A DNA stretch of 46,967 nucleotides from assembly GCA_031272085.1 (NCBI GenBank), contig JAISUN010000012.1, forward strand, positions 1 through 46,967, given 5' to 3'. This document shows positions 35,337-44,835 of the stretch, one piece after another. Each line of letters starts with the position of its first letter. Positions within the stretch are counted from its first letter, which is position 1. The notes under the pieces are model-generated. The model ran no database searches, had not been told where the DNA came from, and saw only the letters and a list, made by a program, of their open reading frames with translations. This stretch comes from Dysgonamonadaceae bacterium. Its GTDB lineage: Bacteria > Bacteroidota > Bacteroidia > Bacteroidales > Azobacteroidaceae. The translations under genes were made by a program, and so were the position numbers.

Positions 35337-35493
35337 AATTTCAATTAAAAACAGTATTTTTTCATCTTTACATAAACTTTATATTTTCCGGTCGTTTTGA
35401 TTGGCAATCTTTACATCTGATTCTTAACTTACTGATATTCAGCAATAATTTTTATTTTTTATATCTACATATTTTTTCGTAGAAAAAAGAATA

Positions 35494-35519
35494 TTTTTAT
35501 CAATGTGTTTTGATAAAAA
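35494..35519. promoter_or_regulatory. Inverted repeat at the phosphate-operon promoter (candidate operator)
   Basis: TTTTTATCAA (35494-35503) and TTGATAAAAA (35510-35519) are perfect reverse complements with a 6-bp spacer. The dyad centre falls about where the -33 box would be relative to the -7 element at 35527-35534, and no good TTTG is present at the normal spacing. This arrangement suggests a bound regulator. Confidence 0.55.
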
Positions 35520-35526
35520 AAATTTT

Positions 35527-35534
35527 TATCTTTG
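35527..35534 (+). promoter_or_regulatory. -7 element of the phosphate operon
   Basis: TATCTTTG (TAnnTTTG) ends 21 bp before the DUF47 start codon. The -33 region is occupied by the inverted repeat. The ten-base direct repeat ATCTTTACAT also lies upstream at 35364-35373 and 35407-35416. Confidence 0.6.
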
Positions 35535-35555
35535 TGGGATAAAATACAGAAAAAC

Positions 35556-36212
35556 ATGAGTAAAATATCCTTTTTTGCAAAAACGAACAAATTTATTGAA
35601 TTGATTGACGCTTTTCTCAACCGCGTTGACCAGAGCATGTTGCTCTTTCAGGAAGGGGTTGCAAATTACCTGTATAATAATGCTGAAAGTTTTAATAATA
35701 ATCTTACGCAACTCGCTGAATGTGAGACAGAATCCGACAAAATCCGCCGTGAAATAGAAATCGGACTTTACATGCAGTCGCTGATGCCACAGGTAAGAGG
35801 CGATATTATGAACCTGTTTGGCGAATTGGACAATCTGATTGACCTCGCAAAGAAAAATATTTTTCAGTTTGAGGTGGAATCGCCTCATATTCCGGCTGAA
35901 CTGATTACCGATTTTATCCGTCTGACCAAGGTTTCAGCCTCGGCGGCCGAGGCGGTAGTTTCGGCGGCAAAATCGTATTTTACTGAACCCGCGGGAGTTA
36001 AAGAAAGAATACACAGGGTTTATTTCTACGAAAAAGAAGCAGACGTCTATGCCGATATTGTCAGGCGGAAGATTTTCAAGGAAATGCCCGACCTCAAATT
36101 GAGCGAAAAATTTCATCTGCGCTACTTTACTCTGCATATCGAAAATATTTCCGATACGGCCGAGAAAGTTGCTGATTTACTGTCGATTATGGCTATCAAA
36201 CGAATAGTTTAA
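35556..36212 (+). CDS. DUF47 (PhoU-like, TIGR00153) phosphate-transport accessory protein
   Basis: A 218-residue all-helical cytoplasmic protein of the DUF47/PhoU-like family, whose genes usually sit next to PiT permeases and which is thought to regulate phosphate flux. Helical segments with metal-coordinating acidic patterns are visible: CETESDKIRREIEIGLY, GDIMNLFGELDNLIDLAKKN, VYFYEKEADVYADIVRRKIF and HIENISDTAEKVADLL. The ExxxD repeats are typical of PhoU. The start at ATG 35556 is preferred to a TTG eight codons earlier that overlaps the -7 element. It is the first gene of a seven-gene run, 30 bp before the permease. Confidence 0.88.
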   Translation: MSKISFFAKTNKFIELIDAFLNRVDQSMLLFQEGVANYLYNNAESFNNNLTQLAECETESDKIRREIEIGLYMQSLMPQVRGDIMNLFGELDNLIDLAKKNIFQFEVESPHIPAELITDFIRLTKVSASAAEAVVSAAKSYFTEPAGVKERIHRVYFYEKEADVYADIVRRKIFKEMPDLKLSEKFHLRYFTLHIENISDTAEKVADLLSIMAIKRIV

Positions 36213-36242: not shown

Positions 36243-37991
36243 ATGGATTTGTTGAGTTGCTTTTTCCTGATAAGCGGACTGTTTCTCGGATGGTCTATGG
36301 GCGCCAACGACGCTGCCAATCTGTTTGGCACTGCGGTCGGTTCGCGCATGGTACGATTCAGGACGGCAGCCTTAATAGCATCGGTTTTCGTGATTATCGG
36401 CGCTACTCTGCAAGGTTCGGGAGCAACTCAAACGCTGAATGAACTTGGCGCAATCGACGCTATCGGCGGGGCTTTCACGGTTGCGCTCTGCTCGGGAGTG
36501 GTGGTTACTCTGATGGTGCGCTACCGCATTCCGGTTTCGACAAGTCAGGCTATCGTAGGCGCGATTTTGGGCTGGTGCTTTTATACATCTACGCCGATAA
36601 ACTGGCATACTTTGCTTAAAATAGTGAGCGCGTGGCTGTTAAGTCCGGTTTTCGGATGTATTTTCGCGGCTCTGTTTTATGTGATTGCCCGAAGATATAT
36701 CCGCCGTTCAAAAATCCATATTCTGAAAATGGAAGCGGTAATCCGCGTTTTATTAGTTATTGCCGGGGCTTTGGCAGCGTACAGTCTTGGGGCGAACAAC
36801 ATTGCCAATGTAATGGGAATTTTTGTAAATTCATTCTCGTTTTCAATTAATACTCAACTATTTACAATATCTTCATCAAAAGTTTTGTTTCTGCTTGGAG
36901 GAATTGCCATTGCTGTCGGAATTTTCACATACAGTTATCGTGTAATAGAAACAATAGGCCGTAAGGTGCTGAAAATGACGCCGATAATGGCGGTTGTAGT
37001 GGTTTTTACGCAGGCTATCGTCCTGTTTTTGTTTTCTTCGCCTCATATTTCAGGATTTTTGACGGCAATCGGACTTCCGGCAATACCTCTTGTGCCGGTT
37101 TCGAGTACTCAAATCGTGGTTGGAGCAATGCTGGGAATCGGCTTGACAAAAGGATTTCACGAAATAAAGTTCAACACTGTCGGCAATATCTTCATCAGTT
37201 GGATTGTAACTCCGGCGGCGGCGGCAATTCTCACTTTTTTTGCCCTGTTTTTTGTGCAGCACACGTTCAATATTCAAATTTCAAATCAGGCTTCAACTGC
37301 GCTGCCGACGCACATTATGCCTGCAAATACAGAATTTTTGGTTCCGCTGAAATTCAATATTTTGACCGTTTTGATGGCCGTTCTTCTTGTTGCGGCCATT
37401 GTCTATATCGTGATTTTAATAGTCCGCAATAAGGGACTTAAACAGTTGGAAATAAACGGCTTATCCGAAGAGCAGCGTTACACGGATTATCGTAAGGCAT
37501 TAACTGATATGGAGTTAAACACAGTAAAACAGGAAAATGACAAACTCTTGTCGAGCCTTGAATCCAAAAAACAGCAACTGATAACCTGGTCGTTGAGTAT
37601 CGGCGAACACCGAAAGCATTTGGAATCAGCGGCCGACCTGATAAAACAGGCTATTGCAGCCGAAGATGAAAAAAAGCGGGAAACTGTTTTACGGCAACTA
37701 CTTACGGATTTGAAGCAGAAATTGAGTTACAGCGGCGAAGTGGAAAATATCTACCTGCAAGCCAGGGCATTACACTCGTCGTTTATTGAAAAACTGAACA
37801 CAGTGGAGCCTCGTCTGACCGACAACGAAGTCAAACTTCTGATTTTGCTCCGTATTGGCCTGTCGTCCAAAGAGATAGCCCCATTGATGAATATATCCGT
37901 CAAGAGCGTGGACATCAACAGGCATCGACTGCGGAAAAAACTCAACCTATCGAAAGACGTGGTTTTATCGGAATATGCAAAAACATTATGA
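36243..37991 (+). CDS. PiT-family phosphate permease fused to a coiled coil and LuxR-type HTH domain
   Basis: A 582-residue fusion. Residues 1-405 are a PiT inorganic phosphate transporter: both duplicated signatures are present (GANDAANLFGTAVGSRM near residue 20; GANNIANVMGIF near 182), plus VSTSQAIVGAILG and VPVSSTQIVVGAMLGIGL. After the last helix (VAAIVYIVILIV) comes a charged coiled coil of about 110 residues (about 410-520; KQENDKLLSSLESKKQQL). The final 60 residues (523-582) are a LuxR/GerE helix-turn-helix: TDNEVKLLILLRIGLSSKEIAPLMNI followed by VKSVDINRHRLRKKL. The coiled coil plus HTH matches the tail of Bacteroidota TPR-HTH regulators. The frame is continuous with no sign of a frameshift. 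It lies in an operon with DUF47 and a phosphate porin. Confidence 0.9.
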   Translation: MDLLSCFFLISGLFLGWSMGANDAANLFGTAVGSRMVRFRTAALIASVFVIIGATLQGSGATQTLNELGAIDAIGGAFTVALCSGVVVTLMVRYRIPVSTSQAIVGAILGWCFYTSTPINWHTLLKIVSAWLLSPVFGCIFAALFYVIARRYIRRSKIHILKMEAVIRVLLVIAGALAAYSLGANNIANVMGIFVNSFSFSINTQLFTISSSKVLFLLGGIAIAVGIFTYSYRVIETIGRKVLKMTPIMAVVVVFTQAIVLFLFSSPHISGFLTAIGLPAIPLVPVSSTQIVVGAMLGIGLTKGFHEIKFNTVGNIFISWIVTPAAAAILTFFALFFVQHTFNIQISNQASTALPTHIMPANTEFLVPLKFNILTVLMAVLLVAAIVYIVILIVRNKGLKQLEINGLSEEQRYTDYRKALTDMELNTVKQENDKLLSSLESKKQQLITWSLSIGEHRKHLESAADLIKQAIAAEDEKKRETVLRQLLTDLKQKLSYSGEVENIYLQARALHSSFIEKLNTVEPRLTDNEVKLLILLRIGLSSKEIAPLMNISVKSVDINRHRLRKKLNLSKDVVLSEYAKTL

Positions 37992-38029: not shown

Positions 38030-39397
38030 ATGAAGAACATTTTTTTATTAATTATCGCAGTCCTGCTTGGTTCAGGACTTTACGCACAGGGCGAGATTCA
38101 AGACGAATCCGCCGAGCGGAATCAGTACGGGAAAGCGGTTACCGACCGTAAAACCCTGCTCCCCGAAGTCAGGGACGGGATTTTGGTAATGCAATCGGCT
38201 GATAAGAGTTACAAATTCTGGTTCGACATCCGCGTTCAGACCGACGCTAACTATTTCTTCGACGCTCCTCACAGCAAGGGCTTCAATGAGTTAGGCGACG
38301 GTTATTCGCTTCGCAGAGCGCGTTTTGCGGCAAAAGCCGACCTTACGAAAAACTGGTACGGCGAAATCGACCTGAATTTTGCAAATGGAGTTTTTGAACT
38401 CGAAGACGCTTATTTGATGTTCCATACGGGCGGATTTCTTATCCGCGGAGGAAATTTCAAAGAAACTTTTTCGATGTCGGAAACTTCCTCCTCGCGCTAC
38501 ATCCCGTTTATGGAGCGCAGCATGGCGGTAGCGGCTTTTGCCCCCGGCCGCCAGATAGGATTCAACGCCCAGTATTCGTCGCGCTATCTGCTCGGCTCGC
38601 TCGGCGTTTCGTTTCAGGCCATAGAAGACGCTGAAACGCGCACTTTTGTGGAAGACAACAACAAGGATTTCGGTATGGATGAAAACGGCGCTTACTACGG
38701 GAAATTAGTATTCCAGCCCTTCAACAACGCCGATTACGGTCTGCATTTGGCGGGAGCCTATTCGTGGCGGAATCCGAAAACCAGCGAGGAAACACGCGGT
38801 ACAATACGTTACAGCACCCGCTCGTTGAGCAACATCAACCGCAAAAAATTTCTCGACACCGACAATATCGGCGATTACGACCACAATCAACTGTCGAACG
38901 CCGAAGTTGCCGTCTGGTACAAGCCCCTCGTAATTACGGGCGAATATCTTACGAATACCGTCAGCCGTACTAACGGACGCGAAGACCTGAATTTCGGCGG
39001 CTTTTACATTCAGGGAAACTGCCTGCTTTTCGGCGGCCGTCAAATTTATGTGAAATCGGAAGGCGAATTTACGCAGCCCGATTTAGGCAGGAAATGGGGC
39101 GATATTGAACTTACCTTCCGCTACGATTATATCAATATGAACTCCAAAGACATAACCGGCGGAGCAGCAGAAGGTTACACGGCAGGATTGAATTTTTACC
39201 TCAATAAAAACGTAAAATTTCAACTTAATTATTCTTACATCAATCACGACCGCTACGCTAACGGAAAAGGCAGTTTGGTAACAGGCCTCGACGCTAACGG
39301 CCAGCCAACCCGCAACCCGGCTAACGTAGCCGCCCCGAAAGGCGAAGGCGGACACGATTACAGCCTGCTCGGATTGAGATTTGAAGTTGATTTTTAA
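38030..39397 (+). CDS. OprO/OprP-type phosphate-selective porin
   Basis: A 455-residue outer-membrane beta-barrel (signal MKNIFLLIIAVLLGSGLYAQ). It shows the porin O/P pattern: YKFWFDIRVQTDANYFFD, LRRARFAAKADLTKNWYGEIDLNFANG, LEDAYLMFHTGGFLIRGGNFKETFSMSETSSSRYIPFMERSM, and a C-terminal aromatic end (LLGLRFEVDF). The family conducts phosphate or polyphosphate across the outer membrane. It is 38 bp after the permease-HTH gene, supporting a shared phosphate role. The substrate preference cannot be read from the sequence. Confidence 0.87.
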   Translation: MKNIFLLIIAVLLGSGLYAQGEIQDESAERNQYGKAVTDRKTLLPEVRDGILVMQSADKSYKFWFDIRVQTDANYFFDAPHSKGFNELGDGYSLRRARFAAKADLTKNWYGEIDLNFANGVFELEDAYLMFHTGGFLIRGGNFKETFSMSETSSSRYIPFMERSMAVAAFAPGRQIGFNAQYSSRYLLGSLGVSFQAIEDAETRTFVEDNNKDFGMDENGAYYGKLVFQPFNNADYGLHLAGAYSWRNPKTSEETRGTIRYSTRSLSNINRKKFLDTDNIGDYDHNQLSNAEVAVWYKPLVITGEYLTNTVSRTNGREDLNFGGFYIQGNCLLFGGRQIYVKSEGEFTQPDLGRKWGDIELTFRYDYINMNSKDITGGAAEGYTAGLNFYLNKNVKFQLNYSYINHDRYANGKGSLVTGLDANGQPTRNPANVAAPKGEGGHDYSLLGLRFEVDF

Positions 39398-39410: not shown

Positions 39411-41150
39411 ATGAAAATGAAAGCATTAAACAAAATATTAATGATTTTGGGCGCACTTTTTTTCTGCGCCTGCGTGGAGGACGAACCCGTTCCGCCTCCC
39501 GAAATGGGCGAATCGCCGGTCAAGATTAACGAAGCATATTCCAATGGCGGACGCTCGACCTACGGCGCTCTCGACTGGGTTGAACTCTACAATACATCCG
39601 ATGTTGCCGTAGATATTAGCGGCTACGTGATGTACGACAAAACCGACAAATCGGAAAAAGTTGTAGTACCTGCCGGAACTACGCTTGCAGCACACGGTTT
39701 CGCAGTTTTTGAAGTTGATATTGACGGAGGATTCGGCCTCGGCAGCGGCGGCGATATGGTTTATCTCGACGACGCCGGCGGCAAACTTATCGACCAGATT
39801 GAATTTGGTGCGCTCACTCCGGAACAGTCATACGCGCGGAATCCCGACGGCTCCGAAACATTCAAAATACAAACTCCTACTCCGGGAACATCCAATAGCG
39901 GAGCAGTCGCACTGCCTTCTGTTACAAACGTTTCCCACTCGCCTGCTTCGCCCACTTCGGATGAAGCGGTTACGGTAACGGCGACAGTTTCGGCAGGCGA
40001 AGGTTCTCTGACTTCGGTAAAAGTGCAATGGACGGTCAATTCCACAGCGCAAACCGACCTGACGATGGCTAATTCCGGCGACGTTTATACGGCAACCATT
40101 CCGAAACAGGCTGCCAATGCCGACGTAGCCTATTCTGTAACAGCAATTAACAGCCTTGGCGGAACTACTTCCGTTTCAGGCTCTTACACGGTTCGCGACG
40201 CAACAGTAGTCGATTATACCGGCCTTGTAATCAATGAGATAGACGGAAACGGCAAGTATATTGAACTTTACAACTCCTCGGCCGCCGCAATTTCATTGAC
40301 AGGAGTAAAATTAGTCAAAAACGAGAGCGGAACGTGGTGGACAGGCGGAGCGGTAAATATCGCAGCCGGAGGCCGTTACACAATAGCACAGAACGGCGAA
40401 TCGCCATCCGGAGCCGACGAACAAACAGGCTCAGCCGGAATTTCGCCGAAGCAAAATCTGAAATTTGAACTGAAATCGCCCGACGACCTTGTTCTTGATT
40501 CGCTAATCCGCACCAATGGCGGAAACTGGGGCGATGGAGTAACGCCCGATTACGGCAGCGGAACAAAATATTCCTATTCGCGCTGTCCCGACGGCAGCGG
40601 CGCTTTCGGCCTCGCTGTTCCCTCTTGCGGAGCGCCTAATCCGAGTATGCCGGCAGGCCCGATTCTGACTAACGGTTCGGCTGTAAATTACGGCGATTTG
40701 GTTATAAATGAAATTGATGGCAACGGGAAATTTATTGAAATTTTCAATAAAGGAACTGCCGCTGTTTCGCTGCAAAATGTTGTTTTGCGTAAAAACGAAA
40801 GCGCGGTATGGTGGACAGGCGGAGCGGTAAATATCGCTGCCGGAGGCTATTACGCAATAGCCCAGACAGGCCAAAGTCCCGCCGGAGCCAGCGAACAGAC
40901 AGGCGCAAGCGGCATCTCGCCCAAAAAGACCGTAAAATTTGAAATGCTTATCGGAAATATGTTCATCGACGGTTTCGCCAGAGTTAAAGCCGACGGAGTT
41001 CTCGATGCAGACTGCACTCCCGACTACGGCAGCGGCACAAAATACTCCTTCTCGCGCTGTCCCGATGGTACAGGCGCATTTGGTTTGGCAGTTCCCTCTT
41101 GCGGAGCGGCTAATCCGGCAAGTTCGGCCGGCGAAATTGCAACTAATTAA
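39411..41150 (+). CDS. Lipoprotein with three lamin-tail domains, two of them a recent tandem duplication
   Basis: A 579-residue exported protein. The N-terminus (LNKILMILGALFFCAC) looks like a lipoprotein signal. Domains: LTD 1 (about 35-165; VKINEAYSNGG... DWVELYN), an Ig-like domain (about 170-262; SPTSDEAVTVTATV), LTD 2 (about 268-415) and LTD 3 (about 427-570). LTD 2 and 3 both contain VINEIDGNGK, WWTGGAVNIAAGG and TPDYGSGTKYS. The DNA repeats show a 29-base identical stretch at 40335-40363 and 40809-40837, an offset of 474 bp. Lamin-tail domains in bacteria occur on surface proteins and with nucleases or phosphatases; no catalytic domain is present here. It is 13 bp after the porin. Confidence 0.82.
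   Translation: MKMKALNKILMILGALFFCACVEDEPVPPPEMGESPVKINEAYSNGGRSTYGALDWVELYNTSDVAVDISGYVMYDKTDKSEKVVVPAGTTLAAHGFAVFEVDIDGGFGLGSGGDMVYLDDAGGKLIDQIEFGALTPEQSYARNPDGSETFKIQTPTPGTSNSGAVALPSVTNVSHSPASPTSDEAVTVTATVSAGEGSLTSVKVQWTVNSTAQTDLTMANSGDVYTATIPKQAANADVAYSVTAINSLGGTTSVSGSYTVRDATVVDYTGLVINEIDGNGKYIELYNSSAAAISLTGVKLVKNESGTWWTGGAVNIAAGGRYTIAQNGESPSGADEQTGSAGISPKQNLKFELKSPDDLVLDSLIRTNGGNWGDGVTPDYGSGTKYSYSRCPDGSGAFGLAVPSCGAPNPSMPAGPILTNGSAVNYGDLVINEIDGNGKFIEIFNKGTAAVSLQNVVLRKNESAVWWTGGAVNIAAGGYYAIAQTGQSPAGASEQTGASGISPKKTVKFEMLIGNMFIDGFARVKADGVLDADCTPDYGSGTKYSFSRCPDGTGAFGLAVPSCGAANPASSAGEIATN
40206..41120 (+). repeat. Intragenic tandem duplication, unit about 474 bp
   Basis: Two copies of a lamin-tail module, about 40206-40660 and 40680-41130, share long near-identical DNA segments, including the 29-base match centred at 40349 and 40823. 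Confidence 0.8.
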
Positions 41151-41835: not shown

Positions 41836-42303
41836 ATGCAAGAAATAGAAAGAAAGTTTTTAGTCTTATCCGACGATTTCAAAAATGAAGTTAAAAAACA
41901 CACAAGAATTGTGCAGGCTTATTTGTCGTCTATCCCGGAACGCACTGTGCGCGTGCGGATTAAGGGCGATAAAGGTTATATTACCATAAAAGGCAAGGGC
42001 AACGACAGCGGGGCTGCACGTTACGAATGGGAAAAGGAAATTCCCGTCGCAGATGTGGAAGAACTGTTGAAAATTTGCGAGCCGGGCGTGATTGACAAAA
42101 TCCGGCACGAAGTTCCGGCAGGCCGCTTCAAATGGGAAATTGACGAGTTTTTCGGCGAGAATGAAGGCCTTACAATGGCTGAAATCGAACTCGACGACGA
42201 AAATGCCGCTTTCGAGCGTCCGGCGTGGCTTGGGAAAGAAGTTACCGGCGACCCGCGCTACTACAATTCCATGTTGATGAAAAATCCTTTCAAGAAATGG
42301 TAG
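41836..42303 (+). CDS. CYTH-domain triphosphate tunnel metalloenzyme
   Basis: A 155-residue protein with the signature EIERKFLV at residues 3-10 (ExExK), then QAYLSSIPERTVRVRIKGDKGYITIKGKGN, RYEWEKEIP, VIDKIRHEV, WEIDEFFGENEGLTMAEIELDDE and the C-terminal DPRYYNSMLMKNPF. Small bacterial members of this type hydrolyse inorganic tripolyphosphate with a divalent metal. The ATG at 41836 fits the family N-terminus. Its last codons overlap the ATG of the transporter gene by 7 bp. The phosphate-operon context fits a tripolyphosphatase role (inference). Confidence 0.88.
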   Translation: MQEIERKFLVLSDDFKNEVKKHTRIVQAYLSSIPERTVRVRIKGDKGYITIKGKGNDSGAARYEWEKEIPVADVEELLKICEPGVIDKIRHEVPAGRFKWEIDEFFGENEGLTMAEIELDDENAAFERPAWLGKEVTGDPRYYNSMLMKNPFKKW

Positions 42304-43901
42304 CCGAAGCGGTTCAGGGCGGAAAGCCTTTCGACCCATTGGATATGAACAATTATCGGGTTGAAAGGCTTCCAAAGCCCCAAAAATCAAAGTTTGAAAA
42401 ATGGATGTCGATAATCGGGGCGCCACTTGCTGTCGCAGTTTTCATCTGGCTTTACCGGTTTGCCGATTTTTCATTTCTCAACAACATAAATGCGGAGTTT
42501 CTCGACAAGGACGCCTCGAAACGCTATGCCGAAATCGGCGCGGCCGCCTTTACGAGAAGCAATTACGCAATGCTGGCAATTTTTGCGGCTGCCATAATAC
42601 TGTGGATTACCGAGGCTGTCCCGAATTATCTTACATCGCTGCTTGTGATACTTGCCATTGTGCTGACGGGCGTAACATCGGAAAAAACCGCTTACGCCCA
42701 ACTCGGCCATCCGGTAATGTGGCTCAATATTCTTTCGTTTGTATTAGCGAGCATGCTGGTTAAAACGCAGGTAGCCAAGCGGTTTGCCCTCTGGTTTGTG
42801 ATTCGCTTCGGGAAAAACGCTTCGATGATTATCATCAGTTTTATGGTCATAAATATTGTGCTGTCTGCCTTTATTTCGGCAACTACGGCCAAAGCGGCCA
42901 TTTTGCTGCCTATTTTTATGGTTGTAGCCGCTATTTACGGGGCTTCGAGCGATAAACGGAATAATTTCGGGCGCAATTTGGTTTTGCAAAATCTTTTTCA
43001 GATAAATATGGGCGCAACCGGCTTCATTACCGGCTCCGGCGCAAACTTGCTGGCCGGTTCGATGATTGCCGGCGCAATGGGCTGGCAAATTTTCAGTTTT
43101 CAGGACTGGTTTATTGCCGCTTTTCCGCTCTGCATAACGATTATGTTGATTGGATGGTTCGTCGGTACAAAAATATTTTTCCCTCTGAAAAAAGAAGAAC
43201 AGGTTCCGCAAATTGAAGGCGGAATCGAGCGTTTGAAAGCCGAATTGCACGCGCTTGGCCGAATGAAAGGCGAAGAATTCCGCGCTATCGGGATTTTTGT
43301 TGTAGTGCTGCTCCTTTGGGCTACCGACAAGCAGCACGGAATCAGCCAGACCGCCGTCGCTTTCGGAGGCGCTATCGTAGCCCTGCTGCCCGGAATAGGA
43401 ATCGTAAAATGGAACGACGTGGACATCCCCTGGCATCTGCTTCTGTTTTCGGCCGGCGCTTACACGCTTGGAGCCGGACTGGAAGCGACCGGATTGCCCG
43501 CAACCATCATCGATTCGGCATTCAATGCGTTTGGAATATCGCCCGATACGCCATTTTGGGCGATTTATCTGATTTTGACCGGAGCGATGCTGTTTTCGGC
43601 GCTGATGTTCGAGAGCAAAACGATGAGGGCGCTGATTTTCGTACCGATAGCGATAGGCGTCGCCCAGAAATTCGGATATCCGATTTTGAGCCTGTCTTTT
43701 CCGGTAGCCCTGTTGATAGAACACGTTTACGTGCTGCCGTTCAACAGCAAACCCGCCGCACTGCTATATACAACCGGCCATTACGGATGGAGCGACACTT
43801 TCAAGTTCGGCTTCACAATGATGTGCATCTCGTGGATAATCATCATCTTATGGGGCGAAACCGTATTGCGCTGGCTGGGTTATACAAGCGGAGTGTTCTG
43901 A
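42297..43901 (+). CDS. DASS/SLC13-like anion transporter
   Basis: A 534-residue inner-membrane protein with about 12 hydrophobic segments, related to the sodium-coupled sulfate/phosphate/dicarboxylate (SLC13) group. Recognisable parts: ITEAVPNYLTSLLVILAIVLTGV, LSAFISATTAKAAILLPIFMV, GATGFITGSGANLLAGSMI, PWHLLLFSAGAYTLGAGLEATG and SFPVALLIEHVYVLPFNSKPAALLYTTGHY. The usual Ser-Asn-Thr sodium-site motif appears as Ser-Ala-Thr in the first half. The ATG at 42297, overlapping the CYTH stop, was chosen; the first 40 residues form a cytoplasmic extension. It is the last gene of the phosphate operon. Substrate: an anion, possibly phosphate or a dicarboxylate. Confidence 0.82.
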   Translation: MVAEAVQGGKPFDPLDMNNYRVERLPKPQKSKFEKWMSIIGAPLAVAVFIWLYRFADFSFLNNINAEFLDKDASKRYAEIGAAAFTRSNYAMLAIFAAAIILWITEAVPNYLTSLLVILAIVLTGVTSEKTAYAQLGHPVMWLNILSFVLASMLVKTQVAKRFALWFVIRFGKNASMIIISFMVINIVLSAFISATTAKAAILLPIFMVVAAIYGASSDKRNNFGRNLVLQNLFQINMGATGFITGSGANLLAGSMIAGAMGWQIFSFQDWFIAAFPLCITIMLIGWFVGTKIFFPLKKEEQVPQIEGGIERLKAELHALGRMKGEEFRAIGIFVVVLLLWATDKQHGISQTAVAFGGAIVALLPGIGIVKWNDVDIPWHLLLFSAGAYTLGAGLEATGLPATIIDSAFNAFGISPDTPFWAIYLILTGAMLFSALMFESKTMRALIFVPIAIGVAQKFGYPILSLSFPVALLIEHVYVLPFNSKPAALLYTTGHYGWSDTFKFGFTMMCISWIIIILWGETVLRWLGYTSGVF

Positions 43902-43902
43902 T

Positions 43903-44835
43903 TTATTCCGCCTTTTCGTAGGCATCGACTATCCGCTGCACAAGTTTGTGGCGGACGATGTCTTTTTTGCTGAATTCGATTTGCGCAATGCCGGGAATAT
44001 CTTTCAAAACCTGCATCGCGTGAATTAATCCCGAACGTTGCGATGCGGGCAGGTCAATCTGCGTAATGTCACCGGTAACAATCATCTTGGCGTTCATTCC
44101 CATACGGGTAAGGAACATCTTAATCTGCTGAATGCTTGTGTTTTGCGCCTCGTCGAGGATAATCACGGCGTCGCTCAACGTGCGTCCGCGCATAAAAGCC
44201 AAAGGCGCAATCTGGATAATCTTGTTTTCGATGTATTCTTTCAGTTTCGCCATCGGAATCATATCTTCCAGAGCGTCGTAGAGCGGTTGCAGGTAGGGGT
44301 CGATTTTGTCCTTCATATCGCCGGGCAGAAAACCGAGTTTTTCGCCTGCTTCAACCGCCGGACGGCTCAAAATTATTTTCCGCACTTCTTTATTCTTCAA
44401 AGCCCTGACTGCCAGGGCAATAGCGGTATAAGTCTTGCCCGAACCCGCCGGCCCGATGGCAAACAGCAAGTCGTTGTCGGTAAAGGCATTAACCAATCGC
44501 TGCTGATTTTCGGTACGCGCCAGAATAGGCCGCCCGTTCATCCCGAAAATTATCAGGTTGTCCTGCTTTTGAACCGATGCGTTTTTGCCTTTGGCTATCG
44601 AGGTTACGGCCTCGTCGCTCAACAAATTAAGTTCGGCGCAATAGCGTTCCATTTCGCGGATTTTTTCCTCAAAATCAGCAAGTTCCTCTTCGTCGCCTAT
44701 CGCTTTAATGACATTTCCCCTCGCCACTATTCTCAACTTTGGATATAAAGACTTGATTAAGTGCAGGTTAGAATTATTAGCCCCGTAGAAAACCACAGGG
44801 TCTGCGTTGTCGATAATTATTACTCTCTCTATCAT
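43903..44835 (-). CDS. phoH: PhoH family ATPase
   Basis: A 310-residue cytoplasmic P-loop protein. Walker A is GPAGSGKT near residue 127 and Walker B is VIILDEAQN near 233, followed by FLTRMGMNAKMIVTGDITQIDLP and the C-terminal EFSKKDIVRHKLVQRIVDAYE. An N-terminal KH-like domain (LRIVARGNVIKAIGDEEELADFEE) precedes it. PhoH was first described as phosphate-starvation inducible and is now linked to RNA metabolism. It converges with the phosphate operon, one base from the transporter stop, and has its own consensus promoter. The placement next to phosphate genes may be coincidence. Confidence 0.92.
   Translation of the reverse strand: MIERVIIIDNADPVVFYGANNSNLHLIKSLYPKLRIVARGNVIKAIGDEEELADFEEKIREMERYCAELNLLSDEAVTSIAKGKNASVQKQDNLIIFGMNGRPILARTENQQRLVNAFTDNDLLFAIGPAGSGKTYTAIALAVRALKNKEVRKIILSRPAVEAGEKLGFLPGDMKDKIDPYLQPLYDALEDMIPMAKLKEYIENKIIQIAPLAFMRGRTLSDAVIILDEAQNTSIQQIKMFLTRMGMNAKMIVTGDITQIDLPASQRSGLIHAMQVLKDIPGIAQIEFSKKDIVRHKLVQRIVDAYEKAE

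Follow-up and report, generated by a model that had tools for sequence, protein, structure and literature searches.

A PiT-type permease fused to a LuxR-type DNA-binding domain in Bacteroidales: a probable membrane-tethered regulator with a candidate operator before its own operon

Regulators that combine a polytopic membrane domain with a C-terminal LuxR-type helix-turn-helix (HTH) in one chain are described from Coriobacteriia, where DadR, HcdR and CadR, predicted with 10-12 transmembrane (TM) helices, activate neighbouring genes in response to a substrate (PMC9734109). In the available part of that report their sensing is speculated on, a mechanism is not given, and the TM domain is not called a member of a transporter family. 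The protein described here, PiT-HTH, shares this architecture, but its putative sensor is a recognisable PiT permease encoded in an uptake operon, and, measured against the accessible account of the Coriobacteriia proteins (PMC9734109), an extra TM helix and a phased, multi-site candidate operator are features of its own. A transporter fold reused as the sensor of a signalling protein is likewise found in Ks-Amt5, an Amt ammonium-transporter module fused to a histidine kinase; according to the available portion of the report (PMC12918730) the output there is a kinase that needs a separate response regulator, whereas PiT-HTH carries a DNA-binding domain on the same chain. In Staphylococcus aureus, loss of PitR raises the expression of phosphate-responsive genes (PMC13170248). 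Pit and PitR resemble the PiT-HTH operon in permease domain and accessory gene, but in the accessible text the signal goes to the PhoPR two-component system and the permease carries no HTH (PMC13170248). The assignment of PitR to the DUF47 family is our own reading, as the term DUF47 is absent from the available part of that paper.

Within the order, the same linker-HTH module occurs in TPR- and Y_Y_Y-type regulators (loci L133-L139, L142, L143; paralogues L171-L178). The array-associated TPR-type members also resemble PiT-HTH in their recognition helix and carry the CTACA array described below; these regulators differ from PiT-HTH in their TPR or propeller sensor and in an array that follows the gene in the opposite orientation. 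A title search of the open-access literature found no paper on a permease-HTH or PiT-LuxR fusion, and a search of the same scope found no described operator for membrane-tethered HTH regulators.

The sequence analysed is a stretch of 46,967 nucleotides (the window) of contig JAISUN010000012.1 from a Dysgonamonadaceae bacterium (GCA_031272085.1). It contains a three-gene operon with the following parts:

35556..36212, + strand: first operon gene, DUF47/PhoU_div protein (Pit-accessory, PitR-like), 218 aa (PF01865, E = 2.5e-21)
36243..37277, + strand: PiT/SLC20-type permease domain, residues 1-345 (PHO4, 195 bits; PDB 6l85, phmmer E = 3.3e-29; signatures)
37278..37424, + strand: poorly conserved linker with an extra TM helix at about residues 376-394 (hydropathy, K/R count)
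37425..37790, + strand: helical linker common to TPR-HTH regulators (linker-HTH profile matches and alignment; heptad periodicity negative)
37791..37988, + strand: LuxR/GerE-type HTH, residues 517-582, with recognition helix ...VKSVDINRHRLRKKL (GerE score, alignment)
38030..39397, + strand: third operon gene, Porin_O_P outer-membrane porin, 455 aa (PF07396, E = 5.5e-42)

For the DUF47 gene the ATG at 35556 was chosen as start; the frame of the ORF caller opens at a TTG, 35532. The PiT-HTH gene, 36243-37991 on the + strand, is a single open frame without interruption, and its product of 582 aa runs from the PiT permease through the extra TM helix and the helical linker into the LuxR/GerE HTH. 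An uninterrupted fusion of this kind had been claimed by a sequence-only reading of the window and proved genuine: PHO4 and GerE both score above their Pfam cut-offs, and the 582-aa protein aligns end to end with 24 full-length homologues of other genomes at 25-50% identity, so the frame is not an accident of assembly. Pfam matches to a histidine kinase or receiver domain were absent from the protein up to E = 1. Some 2 kb ahead of the operon the contig carries leuB, which has a match at 73-88% identity in 34 of 42 other family genomes; the contig therefore belongs to its genome. The idea of a foreign contig was rejected, as no sign of it was seen: the GC content of the operon genes (41-49%) was compared with that of the window (46%), and leuB is close to its congeners.

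The PHO4 family (PF01384) matches residues 19-330 with 195.1 bits against a cut-off of 33.7 and covers profile positions 1-349 of 350; the closest solved relative of this front part is the phosphate transporter TmPiT (6l85, phmmer E = 3.3e-29). The two PiT signatures named by the earlier reading are present as SMGANDAANLFGTAV and SLGANNIANVMGIFV. We take a pair of GANDxAN motifs to be the signatures of the PiT/SLC20 family; in the window the first reads GANDAAN and the second GANNIAN, with N in place of D, a replacement shared by the other HTH-bearing sequences of the alignment except L087. The first signature retains GxND in 21 of the other 24 aligned sequences, the exceptions being L076 (GAQG), L083 (GSKD) and L087. 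The DUF47 and Porin_O_P neighbours suggest that the substrate in the window is phosphate; sulfate is possible as well, because a sulfate-permease model gives a weak match (89 bits against a cut-off of 400).

PiT-HTH is the sole PHO4-family protein in G416 and G361, and 26 of the 28 PiT-HTH genomes have another one, a count that includes G266, whose single PHO4 match is the other protein. The Pst ATPase model TIGR00972 matches in 13 of the 28 genomes at E <= 1e-60, and in 5 of the 28 above its curated cut-off; Pst therefore appears to be absent from many PiT-HTH genomes and present in some. In the genome of the window (G000, 82% complete) TIGR00972 had no match at E <= 1e-60. Judged by signatures and gene contents, PiT-HTH may be a transporter in some genomes and no more than a sensor in others, and the protein of the window perhaps still transports as well as senses.

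PiT proteins are thought to end outside the cytoplasm. A hydropathy scan revealed a strong extra helix beyond the permease at about residues 376-394 (mean 3.39), and in all 25 sequences, that of the window among them, the 15 residues behind it hold 2-6 K/R. Together these points would place linker and HTH in the cytoplasm. L090, with 7 K/R in the 25 residues before the helix against 4 in the 15 after it, and L067, with 3 before and 3 after, fit the positive-inside rule poorly. On balance, hydropathy and K/R count make a cytoplasmic C-terminus probable, which was the outcome of the topology check proposed by the earlier reading. The coiled coil it had described between permease and HTH was not recovered, since a hydrophobic-periodicity test of about residues 395-519 gave no heptad signal; the stretch is better called a helical linker. 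Conservation, expressed as the mean share of the commonest residue, is 0.70 in the HTH, 0.70 in the permease and 0.35 in linker and TM helix.

GerE domains bind DNA. In PiT-HTH the GerE model matches residues 525-577 with 31.8 bits (cut-off 23.5), and the proposed search with the tail alone as query gave 34.5 bits; the closest solved relative of the tail is EsrB (7vim, E = 0.0011). Alignment of the recognition helix, also asked for by the earlier reading, revealed that most conserved residues are retained, namely K, S, R, R, L, R and K, while one common Y is replaced by H and one common A by N; the helix of the window, NRHRLRKK, thus deviates from the consensus. The supposed kinship to the HTH of TPR-HTH regulators was borne out by a profile built from PiT-HTH tails, which finds such proteins, among them nine array-associated ones at E values from 1.1e-32 to 5.3e-53. 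The linker-HTH module also stands behind TPR, Y_Y_Y/propeller, PAS and receiver domains.

At E <= 1e-25, 41 of 393 genomes of the order matched, including that of the window; 39 of the 42 matches beyond the window were examined as wider stretches, with G271, G234 and G126 left out. The fusion has a patchy distribution and was seen in at least 27 of the 393 genomes, window included, a lower bound because three candidates per genome were scored, and additionally in G302, where TM helix and linker are present and the contig stops before the HTH. In 11 examined PiT genes of the order the HTH is absent. Within the family, the 44 other genomes gave no match at E <= 1e-20. A search of the phylum at E <= 1e-60 matched 13 of 395 genomes, which are the window and 12 from outside the class, and an HTH match was found in none of these 12 loci, nor in the stretches examined from Cloacimonadota, Synechococcus/Cyanobium, a Cyclobacteriaceae MAG and other named relatives. 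HTH-less PiT proteins with a DUF47 neighbour are common. An origin of the fusion in a single event was rejected, as the tree needs six changes of the HTH label, three of them forced by supported branches; the number of changes is unsure because of long branches (L087, L076). HTH-less PiT proteins from Cloacimonadota and from further lineages of the phylum (L034-L037, L185-L193) were noticed to be longer at the C-terminus by about 150 residues; this extension gave no Pfam match in L185, the only one scanned, and may lie outside the cytoplasm.

The order of the operon is mostly DUF47, PiT-HTH, Porin_O_P. DUF47 lies upstream of PiT-HTH in 28 of 28 genomes (G302 counted; in G415 on a separate contig piece). 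The porin adjoins PiT-HTH downstream in 24 of 28; three of the others are cut by contig ends (L084, L088, L089), and L079 has no porin match within 14 kb. The porin is also common in HTH-less operons outside the class (11 of 12 loci). In G119 (L071) the PiT-HTH gene contains an in-frame stop. Several observations concern individual neighbours. The DUF47 proteins of the window (35556-36212) and of L076 (5302-5946) are 76% identical, the adjacent PiT-HTH proteins 44% and the porins 46%. Directly after the porin, 39411-41150 of the window encodes a Lamin-tail-domain protein (PF00932, three stretches) that matches an ExeM-exonuclease model far below the cut-off and possibly serves extracellular nucleic-acid or phosphate scavenging. 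A gene for a transporter of the sodium:sulfate-symporter type (Na_sulph_symp, 42225-43901, + strand) and one for a PhoH-like ATPase (43906-44835, - strand) also lie near the operon.

Upstream of the DUF47 gene the window carries a short array of direct repeats and a promoter-like element:

35368..35372, + strand: candidate operator site 1, core TTACA in ATCTTTACATA (leave-one-out matrix triple; the only YTACA triple of its spacing)
35411..35415, + strand: candidate operator site 2, core TTACA in ATCTTTACATC, 43 bp downstream of site 1 (same matrix and pattern basis)
35465..35469, + strand: candidate operator site 3, core CTACA in ATATCTACATA, 54 bp downstream of site 2 (same matrix and pattern basis)
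35527..35534, + strand: promoter-like -7 element TATCTTTG, TAnnTTTG-like, 62 bp after site 3

Within the 250 bp that precede the DUF47 start codon in the 28 HTH operons, no 5-mer is more enriched than CTACA, with 61 copies in 27 of them, whereas 100 shuffles gave a mean of 9.8 and a maximum of 20 (L077 contributes only 99 bp of upstream sequence). Among HTH-less operons it was found in one of 10 from the order, as one copy, and in three of 30 more distant ones. Phased pairs occur in 18 of the 28 HTH operons and in 0 of 10 and 0 of 30 of these controls, which include several near-copies as well as L052 and L053, both lacking CTACA, whose upstream stretch is coding because DUF47 is their second gene. 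G159 has both kinds of operon, one with the HTH and one CTACA, the other an HTH-less PiT operon with none.

On the operon strand CTACA is typically located near -196, -153 and -98, with spacings of 42-43, 54-56 or 97-98 bp. A triple at the three spacings, scored with a leave-one-out matrix, was equalled by at most 4 of 300 shuffles in 24 of 27 testable HTH operons; the weak ones are L075 (9/300), L087 (13/300) and L079 (250/300), and HTH-less operons ranged from 9/300 (L095) to 235/300 in the same test. The triple of the window lies at -188/-145/-91 and no shuffle in 300 was as good, the spacings being taken from relatives; two of its three sites (TTACA) deviate from the consensus. The YTACA triple at the spacing of the window, a pattern written after the window sites had been seen, occurs once in the 2.63 Mb assembly, at the array, with 0 occurrences of a reversed control; the exact CTACA triple was not found in this genome. 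For the PiT-HTH operons, 48 pairwise distances of up to 140 bp yielded a period of 10.75 bp with a resultant of 0.75, a fit matched by 0 of 1000 sets with site positions jittered by at most 8 bp. By this measure the sites tend to share one face of the helix. Such an arrangement would be expected for a membrane-anchored binder, and other cooperative binders would give it too. We regard these direct repeats, CNCTACAW at distances of whole helical turns, as the probable operator of the PiT-HTH operon.

The motif TAnnTTTG, which we take to be the consensus of the -7 element, occurs between -45 and -20 relative to the start codon in 23 of 28 HTH operons and 5 of 40 HTH-less ones, a comparison that is not like with like because many of the latter come from other phyla. 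The -7-like element follows the last site at 56-73 bp (median 66) in the 22 of 26 operons where this distance was measured. The DNA target suggested by the earlier reading, 35490-35540, needs to be moved: it holds the promoter-like element, while the array common to the relatives lies at 35368-35469. Inside the suggested target, just before the -7-like element at 35498-35515, the window contains a perfect 6-bp inverted repeat, TATCAA-N6-TTGATA, a possible extra operator in this genome.

The array might instead belong to another DNA-binding protein, a TPR-HTH paralogue or a PhoB-like regulator, with the PiT-HTH operon only as a target and the HTH of PiT-HTH directed to other DNA or to none. The same kind of array indeed lies beside other proteins with the same HTH, and the PiT-HTH genomes G413 and G350 also hold a TPR-HTH gene with an array of its own. 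However, the array tracks the HTH of the permease and not the operon (CTACA in 27/28 against 4/40, phased pairs in 18/28 against 0/40), L079 loses recognition-helix residues and array together, and the four other linker-HTH proteins in the genome of the window have unlike recognition helices, the array pattern occurring once in it. We consider this explanation quite unlikely. The fusion, the retained HTH residues, the probable cytoplasmic C-terminus and the array that tracks the HTH together give good support, of a comparative kind, to the membrane-tethered transcription factor proposed by the sequence-only reading; its further suggestion that transport state controls DNA binding is treated below as a conditional model.

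The arrays beside other regulators deserve a separate description. The exact CTACA triple occurs in 61 of 393 genomes and a reversed control in about 80 (counted from the table), so in bulk the triple is at chance level and only its location is informative. In a hand-picked set, 9 of 14 intergenic-looking sites adjoin a linker-HTH gene; because this first choice of loci was made by eye, the 30 loci listed for the exact triple were examined. Twenty of these sites lie in long ORFs, none of them near a linker-HTH gene, and the other ten comprise three repeats (by eye), one PiT-HTH operon, three loci that adjoin a linker-HTH gene and three that adjoin neither. The nine array-associated loci (L133-L139, L142, L143) consist of a TPR-type regulator gene followed by an inverted phased CTACA array. 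Five of these regulators were scanned: all five match TPR families and four match GerE, below the cut-off, whereas L137 gave no GerE match in the profile scan. The recognition helix reads RYRLRK in all nine and resembles that of PiT-HTH. Among 14 linker-HTH paralogues of four genomes the recognition helices mostly differ, and no intergenic CTACA pair was found at these 14 loci, including L171 and L176, which have an RYR helix. Neighbouring genes are SusC-like by eye (L138, L142, L143), confirmed as redoxin (L136) and DUF6029 (L134), and in further cases sigma-like by eye.

At all nine loci the array follows the stop codon of the regulator and is inverted relative to it, and it is also inverted relative to the next gene in all seven loci that have one on the contig; a simple activator model would not predict this orientation. 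Four of the nine have an additional, fourth site at a distance of 11 bp from the third, and the PiT operon L083 has the same 11-32-54 series. In the 393 genomes the four-site pattern has four matches, each next to a linker-HTH gene or a PiT-HTH operon; these are the three places that suggested the pattern and one new locus, from the genus of one of the three. Its reversed control gave 14 matches, all in the repeat-rich G134.

Permease and DNA-binding parts were lost separately in some lineages. In L079 the recognition helix is degenerate (ATESETDTAIQSIRNKL) and the permease signatures are intact; it is the only one of 28 HTH operons without CTACA and also lacks an adjacent porin. L087 shows the reverse: PHO4 does not match and the permease signatures are lost, while GerE, DUF47, the porin and two CTACA 33 bp apart are kept. 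Its PiT-HTH homologue (L087:5997-7652) has a permease domain beyond PHO4 recognition and is possibly a receptor derived from a transporter. In L076, which the tree places as sister to the window, and in L083 the first signature is eroded and the HTH is intact. Within one genus, to which L090 also belongs, L088 keeps the tail up to the contig end together with the array, and L091 has lost the tail and has no array. Supported branches yield three independent contrasts; CTACA accompanies the HTH in a mean of 2.8 of them over random pairings, which gives direction and not significance because there are only three. It could be argued that the HTH is vestigial or an artefact of assembly and the protein a mere permease, given that HTH-less PiT proteins next to DUF47 are common and that the helix of the window deviates at one conserved position. 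The 24 full-length homologues, a conservation of the HTH equal to that of the permease, the array, and the lineages in which the HTH outlasted intact permease signatures (L087, and L076 and L083 for the first) make this very improbable.

From what is read directly in the DNA, namely fusion, operon, array, their co-occurrence, phasing and joint loss, we think it likely that PiT-HTH is a membrane-tethered autoregulator in which the PiT domain acts as sensor and an HTH oligomer on the array activates its own operon. We infer the topology, the binding of the HTH to the array, the activation, and phosphate occupancy or flux as the signal. The permease would end outside and the added TM helix would return the chain to the cytoplasm, where the helical linker would present the LuxR-type HTH. 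An HTH oligomer could then bind the row of CNCTACAW sites, spaced by whole turns, upstream of the operon. The operon would most likely be activated, a guess based on the upstream position of the sites; about 66 bp separate the nearest of them from the -7 box, and 62 bp in the window. A change in phosphate occupancy or flux might cause the permease, possibly with DUF47, to move the last TM helix and the linker, which would alter the placement of the HTH on the array and thereby the activity of the operon.

An ordinary autoregulator whose HTH binds the array constitutively, carried on a transporter and uncoupled from phosphate, is a rival reading: the sequence gives no sign of coupling, and linker and TM helix are poorly conserved (0.35). 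Yet the linker-HTH module sits behind sensors elsewhere (TPR, Y_Y_Y/propeller, PAS and receiver domains), DUF47 is adjacent in 28 of 28 genomes, and in the available part of the S. aureus report loss of PitR raises phosphate-responsive expression (PMC13170248). Constitutive binding appears unlikely to us, though it deserves serious consideration.

A more far-reaching version of the tethered autoregulator joins these observations, and we offer it tentatively, with more doubt than conviction. PiT-HTH would be a flux-reading transporter whose oligomers grip one face of a DNA stretch of about 100 bp, at sites separated by about 1, 3, 4, 5 and 9 turns, so that the DNA lies on the membrane. The array would represent an orientation-independent code for a class of tethered regulators rewired by exchange of the sensor (TPR, propeller or permease), and in some lineages (L087) the permease would have decayed to a pure receptor.

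If the proposed regulation is true, one polypeptide does a job that normally needs a transporter, a kinase and a response regulator. It would also provide a testable protein-DNA code, from recognition helix to phased CNCTACAW array, for membrane-tethered HTH regulators, and the lineages in which transport signatures and DNA-binding residues were lost separately serve as natural experiments. With the same array beside TPR-type linker-HTH genes, this code is a candidate operator code for a wider class of regulators.
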